Source: Cliona cf. orientalis (Eukaryota > Porifera > Demospongiae > Clionaida > Clionaidae). Taken from it: a stretch of DNA of 64,000 nucleotides. The DNA lies in NCBI GenBank assembly GCA_963930775.1, contig OZ005700.1, forward strand, positions 8,070,609 through 8,134,608, in the 5' to 3' direction. Below are positions 21,001-29,343 of this stretch, one piece after another. A model generated the notes under the pieces. It made no database searches. It was not told the DNA's origin and saw nothing but the letters and a program-made list of their open reading frames with translations. Every line of letters begins with the position of its first letter. The stretch's first letter is position 1. Made by a program: the position numbers and the translations under genes.

Positions 21001-24000
21001 CACCAACCGTGGACTTGACGCTGTGAAGAAGATTGCCGAAGAGAGACAGCTTAGTGGAGTGTATGGGCCACTTATCGATAACTTTGTACTGAAGAAAGAG
21101 GAAGCTGCTGTAGCTGTTGATGTCACTGCTGGAAATAGGTTTGTGATTGCTGTTTGTGCCAGCCTCAATACCTCTGAATCAGTGAAATCCCTAAATGGCT
21201 TGTGGTGATTATTAGTGTGTGGGCTGTTAGATCAGCATAGAGTGGGTGTGCTGTGTGTGTCTGTAATCAGTAGTTGGCTCTGACCCTTCACTGATCACAA
21301 TTGTAATTTTTTTCCCTTACATGTATGTATAGGTTGTTTCATATTATTGTGGACACAGATAGGACAGCCTCTCAGATTCTTTCAGTCATGAACAAACAAA
21401 AAATGGCTGGAGAAGTGACTTTCCTTCCACTAAATAAGTTGCAACCTCCCAATCCAACCTACCCCCAGGCTAAGGTAGTCACTACATGCCAGTACACAGT
21501 ATTGAATGTGAGATACGTTTTTGTTGATAGGAAGCTGAACCGATGGTCAGTTTTCTCGAGTATAACCCCATATTTCACCCGGCTATCATGCAAGTGTTTG
21601 GAAAGACTCTTATATGCCGGAGTCTTGACCTTTGCTCTCACTTTGCAAGGACTGCCAATCTTGACTGTATCACACCTGAAGGTAAGCATACCTACGTACA
21701 CTGTAAAGGCATGGCACATAGATTATGATAGTACCTAGAGATTATATTTGTCTTAAATTTGACAATAATAGTGTACATGAATAAATTTTTTTAATTTTGT
21801 GCTTAGGTGACCAGGTGGCGAGAAAGGGTACCCTGACTGGCGGCTACTATGATCCTTCAAGGTCTCGTCTCAGACTACAGCATGAGATCTATAAGCTTCG
21901 AAGATCGCTAGAAACCACTGAAGCAGAGAAGGCCGAAATCCGAGAACAAGTGGAAGATATCCTAACATACATGTACATGTATATTTAGGCAAAATACAGC
22001 CTAGAAGGCATTTTAATTAGCTAATTTAGATAATTTGGTATGATTCCATTGTACCACACATACACGTACTTGTGTTGTGGTTTATTTCTTTAACTGCTAA
22101 GCACAGCTAGACGGCCAGATTACTCGAGCTCTCAGCGACGAGCAGAAGCTAGAAACAAAACGAGTTCAGCTAAGGTATTAATTAATCGTGCATAATAGTC
22201 CATGCATGTACTTTCTTTAAAAAATGTAGAGAGACATTTGAACAACAGAGAATGGACATACGAGCTCTCCAGAGGGAACTACAGGCTAACAAGAAAGCGC
22301 TGGAGCCAAAGGTTAGTGGCAGTGATGAACTGATAGTCTCTCGGTCTCCTGATAGGGTGATCTCAACTATGATATACCACACATTGTGTATGTATAGGAG
22401 AGGATGCTGTCTAAGCAGGAAAGGGACATTCAAACGATACAGAGTCAGCTCGCTGCTCTGCAGGCAGAGTTGGGAACCGAGCTACTCTCACAACTCAATC
22501 ATAATGAGCAGCAAGAGGTACGATATTATTACTATTTAATACGACAAACCAGAGTTGTGAATATTATTATGTGTTTATCGTGTAGGTGGAACAGTTGTCA
22601 GAAGAAATTCAGTCTCTGCAGCAGCAGCTAAGAGCGTGCCTTCAACAGAGGACCAAGCTGGAGAGCCAGAAGAACACCTTGGACAACCTCCTCTCCAGTA
22701 ACCTGCTGAGGAGAAAGGAACAACTCCAACAAGAGCTTGAGGAGATATCCCTTGATGACAACAGGCAGCAGTTAGAGATGAAGACGGCAGAGCTGGAGCA
22801 CCTCTTGGTGACTATGGAGCAGAGTAGGACTAGAGCTGAAGGTGTGTCTGTGTGTGTGTGTGTGTGTTGTACTCTTTGTAGGATGCATTTTTTTTTTAAT
22901 TTGCTGCCATGGAAAATATATTCTATGCAGAGGTCCACACTCAGCTGGACAAGTTGAGGAAAAAGACCAAGGAGATAGAAACAGCTATTGACAAATGGAA
23001 GGTTTGTCACTATATAGCATCAAAATTTTGGAGATTCTTTACTTTTGATGTATCCACAAAATTCATGAAATTTTGCATCATGTGAAAATTTCCCGCTATG
23101 GTGATATTTGCAGAATTGATCCCCTTATGTTTTTTTTTTATGTTAGGCGGCGGAAAGGGAGCATCAGGAGGCTATTAACGAGGAAGCAAAACACATGGAG
23201 AAATTGGCAAATAAGAGAAGCTTGCTATTGAAAAAGGTATATTTAAATTATCATGATAGTACACTGTGAGCTAATTTTCTCCTTGTAGAAAGAGGAGAGC
23301 ATGCGTAAGATCAGAGAACTCGGCTCCCTCCCCTCTGATGCATTTGATAAATATCAGGGACTTACTCTCAGTCAGGTACATGTAAAATAATAATATTCTC
23401 ATGATGTAGCCTAGAATCAATCCAAAACAATTGATAATACAAATTCATAAAATTTAATACAATACTGATTGTTGATAAGTCAATATGGCATGTCCATATA
23501 ACAAGCTACATACTTGAGCATGCCTGAAAATTTCCATTACTAAGAACAGCCGGGGAGACTGGTTGGGATGGTAGGAATGCCTGGTATGGCGTTGGTGATG
23601 CAGGCAGCACACGCACCAGGTGTTCCCGTTGCACCACAGGGTAGCTCACAAGCTGCAAATCCAAGCCCAATTGCAGGAATAATGATGTTGGCCTGGCTAA
23701 GGACGAAATTGAAAATTGAAACTAAGCACTCTGCAGACACCCCACCATTGCTGCCACTGTCTCCATCACTGTCTTCAGTAGTACTACTACTGCTGCTGCT
23801 GCTGCTTGAAGTACTTCGAGAATCTCGAGGCATTGCCAGAGCTGGTGGGCTCAGCTGAAGAATCAGTAGGCCAGCTACCAAGGCAAATAATAGGATCTTT
23901 TGTGCTTGCATTTTGATCTGGATGGAGTTAGTACAATTTCTTCTTGGCTTCTGCTTGATTTTTTTTGCTTTCTGATACTGAGGGTGATGTTTTGAATCTT

Positions 24001-28887: not shown

Positions 28888-29343
28888 TCAGCCGCAGCCG
28901 GCAATGCTGGTAGGGATCAAAGGGATGGCTGGTATGGCAGCTGCAACGCAGGCCACGCAAGCTGCTGCATCTCCCCCGTCACAGACAGTGATGCACGTGG
29001 ACACTCCAAGGAGAATACCTGGAAAGAGGGAATTGAATTGGCCGATCACAAAGTTTGCAATTCCGATCAAACACTCGACAGCATCTACATCATCGTCATC
29101 ATCATCATCGTCATCATCATCATCATCATCATCGGTATCAGTATCAGTATCAGTATCAGTCTCAGTCTCAGTCTCAGTCTCAGTCTCAGTCTCAGTCTCG
29201 GTATCAGTATCAGTATCACCGGTATTCTCACGCAACTGTACGGCATTTCTATTCTTGCTTGGCTTTGCTTGGGCCATAGGAGTGAGCTGGATTAGTAGAA
29301 GGCCAGCCACCAGGGTCAAGACCAGAAATCTTTGTCCAAACAT
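28888..29343 (-). CDS. Small secreted six-cysteine protein, member 4 (Asp/Thr/Glu repeat)
   Basis: 151-aa single-exon ORF just downstream of SMC3. Signal peptide MFGQRFLVLTLVAGLLLIQL, then a linker of alternating Thr-Asp and Thr-Glu followed by a run of about 15 Asp, encoded by (ATC)n and GTATCA/GTCTCA hexamer repeats on the plus strand. The core keeps the family pattern: CLIGIANFVIGQFNSLFPGI, CITVC, CVAC, IPAIPLIPTSIAGC. It is the most divergent member, with seven rather than eight residues between the second and third cysteine pairs. The long acidic tract suggests calcium or cationic-ligand binding, or a pro-region that balances a basic or membrane-active core; this is inference. Confidence 0.75.
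   Translation of the reverse strand: MFGQRFLVLTLVAGLLLIQLTPMAQAKPSKNRNAVQLRENTGDTDTDTETETETETETETETDTDTDTDTDDDDDDDDDDDDDDDVDAVECLIGIANFVIGQFNSLFPGILLGVSTCITVCDGGDAAACVACVAAAIPAIPLIPTSIAGCG

Follow-up and report, generated by a model that had tools for sequence, protein, structure and literature searches.

Four open reading frames in and beside the SMC3 gene of the sponge Cliona cf. orientalis, together with two divergent paralogues on another contig, form what is apparently a real and undescribed protein family. Its kind is familiar, that of small secreted proteins rich in cysteine, and as far as seen it is lineage-restricted. Its members share a signal-like N-terminus, a variable linker rich in Ser, Thr, Asp and Glu, and a hydrophobic core of ~62 residues that contains six cysteines. 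Our tentative preference, at a probability of about 0.35, is that these proteins are secreted amphiphiles acting at surfaces or lipids.

The initial annotation had proposed four single-exon genes on the minus strand of the window, the 64,000-nucleotide stretch of DNA that was analysed, and their coordinates and strand were as claimed, with each frame running from ATG to stop (Table 1). Copies 1–4 (g1–g4) can be aligned over their full length, from the signal-like N-terminus through the last cysteine; copies 1, 3 and 4 are 69%, 71% and 52% identical to copy 2, respectively, and tblastn comparisons among copies within the window gave E values down to about 1e-46. No further copy was detected by tblastn inside the window, where the leftover matches (best E = 0.002) were short and fell mostly on the strand opposite the copy 4 repeats. 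Searches of the whole assembly (tblastn with single copies; 216.8 Mb, 149 contigs) returned the window copies and two divergent paralogues, g5 and g6, which are 41% (over the matched part, E = 3.6e-7) and 29% (E = 7.2e-5) identical to copy 2. One of the assembly queries found g6 and missed g5, and the copy count is a lower bound of at least six. Contig C7 gave a weak match of 20 residues (E = 0.196), and a match on contig C17 (L012, E = 1.83) was rejected as a chance alignment.

The placement of these genes in and beside SMC3 was also borne out. Copies 1–3 lie in one SMC3 intron, and copy 4 lies past the SMC3 stop codon (28363-28365, assigned by eye), tail to tail with SMC3 in the opposite orientation and with its interval starting at 28888. 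A frame at 27157-27375 matches PDB SMC3 chains (E = 2.8e-15); the alignment covers residues 1018-1068 of chain 6wg3_B (1,217 residues), and the frame is open from 26998, where the intron ends. The open frames upstream, to 23375, are taken by us to be SMC3 by eye, and an SMC_hinge match at 20888-21205 was sub-threshold (17.1 bits vs. 22.5). Nested genes are ordinary in sponges: PMC10282587 gives 2,432 of them for Aphrocallistes and 3,358 for Amphimedon.

Table 1. Features of the six-cysteine gene family and its SMC3 setting. Positions are those of the window except for g5 and g6; cysteine gaps are the numbers of residues between consecutive core cysteines.
Feature	Position	Strand	Length	Description	Cysteine gaps
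SMC3 intron hosting copies 1–3	23376..26997	+	3,622 bp	GT...AG; frame in phase across	
Copy 1 (g1)	23540..23911	-	123 aa	Signal-like N-terminus, Ser-rich linker, six-Cys core	25,3,8,2,17
Upstream stretch of copy 1	23912..24078	-		TATATAA 97 nt before ATG; 49-nt block common with copy 2	
Copy 2 (g2)	24807..25148	-	113 aa	Signal-like N-terminus, acidic Ser/Thr linker, six-Cys core	25,3,8,2,16
Upstream stretch of copy 2	25149..25330	-		TATAAA 111 nt before ATG; 49 nt match copy 1 upstream at 80%	
Copy 3 (g3)	25917..26288	-	123 aa	Signal-like N-terminus, acidic Thr/Glu/Asp linker, six-Cys core	25,3,8,2,17
Upstream stretch of copy 3	26289..26420	-		TATAAA 113 nt before ATG	
Copy 4 (g4)	28888..29343	-	151 aa	Signal-like N-terminus, long Asp/Glu/Thr repeat linker, six-Cys core	25,3,7,2,17
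Simple repeats, 3-nt and 6-nt units	29088..29218			Code for most of the copy 4 acidic linker	
Upstream stretch of copy 4	29344..29480	-		TTATAAAA 128 nt before ATG	
g5	contig C16 5294377-5294718		114 aa	Signal-like N-terminus, six core cysteines	25,4,12,2,15
g6	contig C16 2396050-2396367		106 aa	Signal-like N-terminus, six core cysteines	25,3,8,2,15

Signal-like N-termini, judged by eye, are common to the copies as had been proposed, and in g1–g4 the motif A-x-A, read from the sequence, precedes the presumed cleavage point. The six-cysteine core likewise held up: all six members follow the framework C-x25-C-x3/4-C-x7-12-C-x2-C-x15-17-C, in which the Cys1–Cys2 spacing of 25 residues is invariant. 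Five of the six cores are free of Lys and Arg, with none among the 315 residues of g1–g5. This property is not family-wide, as the g6 core is mildly basic, with two Lys as its only Lys/Arg residues and one Asp/Glu. Core GRAVY values are 1.04-1.45 in g1–g5 and 0.48 in g6. Over the first 18 residues from Cys1, the hydrophobic moment points in the same direction in every core (84-113 degrees), and in just three of the six is it larger, at the 5% level, than in shuffles of the same core.

The linkers, which range from 16 to 63 residues, vary freely across the copies, in agreement with the initial annotation. Their description as acidic suits copies 2–4 (31 of 63 residues are Asp or Glu in g4) better than copy 1, whose linker is mainly Ser (18 Ser/Thr and 5 Asp/Glu of 34 residues); the g5 linker is not acidic (4 Lys/Arg and 2 Asp/Glu of 22). 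In g1–g4, all linker Lys and Arg residues fall within the first ~12 positions, and none is near the border between linker and core.

Two AlphaFold models of the four window cores, computed with different first sequences, contained helices and no strand. Helices were placed at 2-27, 29-32 and 38-48 in model 1 (mean pLDDT 61.8, pTM 0.33) and at 2-33 and 37-47 in model 2 (pLDDT 64.1, pTM 0.36). The models are of low confidence and, as they derive from the same four cores, mutually non-independent. Foldseek searches against the PDB returned a single, unusable match for model 1 (E = 9.6) and no match for model 2.

A hydrophobic core, a fixed first span, an even number of cysteines, five cores out of six that bear no positive charge and a free hydrophilic head together argue for an amphiphile. 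Given the Lys/Arg-free cores and the lack of a basic residue at the linker/core border of g1–g4, we tentatively prefer a secreted protein of interfaces or lipids to a role in defence or in matrix and spicules; these three readings overlap. If expressed, such a protein would enter the secretory pathway through its signal peptide, and after cleavage a disordered hydrophilic head, mostly Ser/Thr-rich and acidic, would be kept attached to the hydrophobic core. The core would probably fold as a helical hairpin, with the 25-residue Cys1–Cys2 span as helix 1, a short loop closed by CxxxC and CxxC, helix 2 beginning near CxxC, and a Pro/Ile run returning the chain to Cys6. Nested disulfides, 1–6, 2–5 and 3–4, a pairing that we infer from the hairpin, would staple the two helices. 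With no positive charge in most cores, there would be no charge attraction to anionic membranes; the core may associate with lipid or form assemblies at interfaces, the hydrated head then facing outward, and the protein could thus serve as a secreted surface-active, coat-forming or lipid-carrying molecule. The positive-inside rule lends no support to a topology in which the protein would span a membrane and have one end in the cytosol.

Several known systems resemble the family in part. Saposin-like helical-hairpin proteins are secreted, have six cysteines and hydrophobic helices, and are often acidic, and the family is similar in predicted secretion, size, cysteine number and modelled hydrophobic helices. 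The order and spacing of the cysteines differ, however: SapB has C-x2-C at its N-terminal end, whereas the first gap is x25 in all six members of the family, none of which matched the Pfam saposin model at E≤10. Fungal hydrophobins share the small secreted form, the variable N-terminal part and the hydrophobic cysteine-rich core, but they carry eight cysteines with two CC pairs, compared with six cysteines and no adjacent CC pair in any of the six cores. In kind, that is, in being small, cysteine-rich and lineage-limited as far as seen, the family is also like a taxonomically restricted cysteine-rich family of corals, which are early animals, a likeness by description only that is drawn from an excerpt of PMC2652719.

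Little is known of the small, lineage-restricted proteins in the secretomes of early animals, and the cysteine framework given above, combined with a core free of Lys and Arg (five of six), provides a key with which other sponges can be searched. Should these proteins indeed be amphiphiles, the family would represent a new type of surface-active protein for sponge surfaces or for sponge-microbe contact; we know of no described animal model for a surface-active protein of this type. A bolder version, which we consider a long shot, is that these proteins make up a sponge-specific class of secreted amphiphile, in which a Lys/Arg-poor, triple-stapled hydrophobic hairpin of helices bears a disordered acidic head, and that would be an animal counterpart of hydrophobins or lung surfactant proteins at sponge surfaces or around symbionts.

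A role in host defence is possible, though we lean against it. The secreted core, uncharged or anionic, would insert into microbial membranes, and the acidic region would keep it soluble until release. Signal-like N-termini, tandem copies, a cysteine-rich hydrophobic core and a free linker all fit this proposal, as do the TATA boxes upstream of the window copies, since such boxes are common among inducible genes; the basic residues of the g6 core and of the g5 linker also point in this direction. Cationic antimicrobial peptides and defensins, however, have a net positive mature core, a feature that g6 alone approaches, and no Pfam peptide family was matched apart from one sub-threshold hit of g6 discussed below. 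The initial annotation's speculative hint at a defence peptide whose acidic region is pro-like is weakened, in its cationic, furin-released form, by the five Lys/Arg-free cores and by the position of the linker basic residues of the window copies, which is near the start of the linker and not near the core.

Substitution patterns also count against a defence role. NG86 dN/dS in the core was 0.155-0.449 in all six pairs of window copies, with the three g4 pairs unreliable because their dS values (1.76-2.42) are near saturation. YN00, which returned values for five window-copy pairs, gave higher ratios (0.447-0.666), and dS was inestimable in eight of the nine core pairs that involve g5 or g6. 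Third codon positions differed most in each of the six window core pairs. This pattern suggests net constraint as opposed to diversification, and stops short of proving strong purifying selection. For the same six pairs, NG86 dN was lower in the signal (0.056-0.339) than in the core (0.172-0.448) in every case, so the signal is no less conserved than the core, and the earlier statement that the core is conserved while linkers vary holds for core versus linker only.

Somewhat less credible than defence is a structural or adhesive matrix protein, belonging to spongin, mesohyl, basal glue or the coat of spicules. Its cysteines would form cross-links, and its acidic head, phosphorylated or glycosylated, would bind calcium or silica. 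Acidic Ser/Thr repeats of variable length and a hydrophobic cysteine core are in keeping with it. The same genome contains a papain-family exon with CGASYAFSAMGALEG (L051, the one such exon among 30 loci examined of 116 matches) in which Ser replaces the catalytic Cys, a change that is the hallmark of silicatein and points to a siliceous demosponge. Glassin, a silica protein of glass sponges, is also encoded by a single-exon nested gene according to PMC10282587. Against a cross-linker, the even number and strict spacing of the cysteines would suggest an autonomous disulfide domain. Matches to the Pfam model New_glue (PF21827) were below its cut-off of 31 bits (g2, E = 0.0017, 18.5 bits; g3, E = 0.35, 11.1 bits) and fell on the signal and linker.

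That no named family could be recognised, as first noted, was sustained by the absence of significant matches in Pfam, NCBIfam, PHROGs, the PDB, phages, plasmids, GTDB and IMG/VR, none of which is a metazoan protein collection; "unrecognised" should accordingly be read as applying to these libraries only. Isolated cores were compared with Pfam alone, full-length g1–g4 were also compared with NCBIfam, and PHROGs was searched with full-length g1–g6 (g5 without its Met). Full-length g1–g4 gave sub-threshold matches to Pfam and NCBIfam, mainly on the signal and linker, with a few g4 matches reaching the core (the best 25 of 31 being considered for g4 in Pfam). At E≤10, Pfam gave no match for the isolated g1–g4 cores or the g5 protein. 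The best PHROGs match of the six proteins (E = 0.0095) lay on the g4 repeats and the start of the core, and g2 had nothing below E = 0.1 in the PDB. An origin from the prokaryote and virus collections covered was rejected: a family query (P0002) had no phage or plasmid match at E≤1, none of 436 pattern matches on GTDB contigs (pattern A3) was confirmed as prokaryotic relatives, and none was confirmed among the 13 and 4 IMG/VR matches of patterns A2 and P0006 for viruses. A literature search by core peptide strings did not find the sequences in print.

A divergent kinship with the plant Gnk2/DUF26 (Stress-antifung) domain, with its C-x8-C-x2-C motif, is very improbable. That spacing is present in four of the six cores (the gap is x7 in g4 and x12 in g5), and a profile of all six cores matched the plant proteins 6grf (E = 0.022) and 6gre (E = 0.7) in the PDB. 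g6 matched 6grf with a whole-chain E of 0.0021 and PF01657 with E = 0.15 (13.1 bits vs. a curated cut-off of 25, over profile positions 50-73 of 99). Two shuffles of the g6 core that preserved its cysteines lost the Gnk2 match, which suggests that the likeness may involve more than cysteine spacing, two shuffles being few. The value of 0.0021, however, sums two 6grf repeats, and the better stretch, which spans 29 residues, scores an independent E of 1 when taken alone. A profile of the four window cores had no Gnk2 match, and none of the other five members matched PF01657 at E≤10. Gnk2 domains span roughly 100 residues and adopt an alpha/beta fold with an antiparallel sheet, in contrast to the ~62-residue cores and their low-confidence models, which show helices and no strand. 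A search of the sponge's own genome with PF01657 gave no match and was uninformative, as control genomes were equally blank. We therefore read this lead as a probable local resemblance of one divergent copy, g6.

Returning to the family as a set of genes that would produce secreted amphiphiles, we considered whether the frames are expected by chance. When the host intron was block-shuffled in non-overlapping base pairs, 28 of 300 shuffles held an ATG-initiated ORF of at least 113 aa; ORF length alone is thus unconvincing, and the case for genes rests on homology, on which chance ORFs were rejected given six related copies. Copies 1–3 follow one another at distances of 1.1-1.26 kb, and two blocks recur in register among them, one of 165 nt in the core and one of 105 nt around the start codon. 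An inverted-repeat element was rejected, as no pair of ≥40 nt was found within 23300-29500, and so was an RNA gene, as no Rfam family reached its gathering score within 22500-30500. The TATA-type boxes of copies 1–4 fall within two alignment columns of each other (background of the pattern, 0.00067 per base per strand); because copies 1–3 share ancestry, these are not four independent cases, and a similarly strict pattern found no such box within 400 nt upstream of g5 or g6. A polyadenylation hexamer follows the stop within 400 nt in copies 1 and 3 and is absent from this interval in copies 2 and 4. A scan for bacterial promoters and terminators showed no excess over shuffles. On the strength of the TATA boxes at matching places and the third-position excess, the four window copies look like real genes. 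The least probable of all the readings, that these ORFs are chance or dead copies without a protein product, draws on their unremarkable length and on the two missing hexamers, and is opposed by these same gene-like features and by a frame, a signal-like N-terminus and six cysteines kept in six copies on two contigs.

Other genes were noted in the window and on contig C16. In the window, a frame with a Nidogen-like (NIDO) domain is present at 31758-32075 on the plus strand (E = 1.4e-21), which places copy 4 between it and SMC3, and a frame at 16676-17788 on the minus strand matches Fes1, a nucleotide exchange factor (E = 1.2e-05), and is presumably a SIL1-type gene. On contig C16, a 526-codon stop-free frame (L056:4968-6545, plus strand) matches Glyco_hydro_16 with a whole-protein E of 8.1e-07 and no single stretch passing alone; its first ATG is ~150 bp from that of g6, head to head. 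A stop-free Sulfatase frame (L055:516-2012, minus strand; Pfam E = 4.9e-47) lies ~2.4 kb from g5 on the same contig. Contig C16 also carries two tandem cathepsin-L-like clusters, at 190-198 kb and 4848-4863 kb, with six and five near full-length single-frame domain matches, respectively; cathepsin-L-like matches elsewhere, such as those of a cluster on contig C19, are split into pieces.
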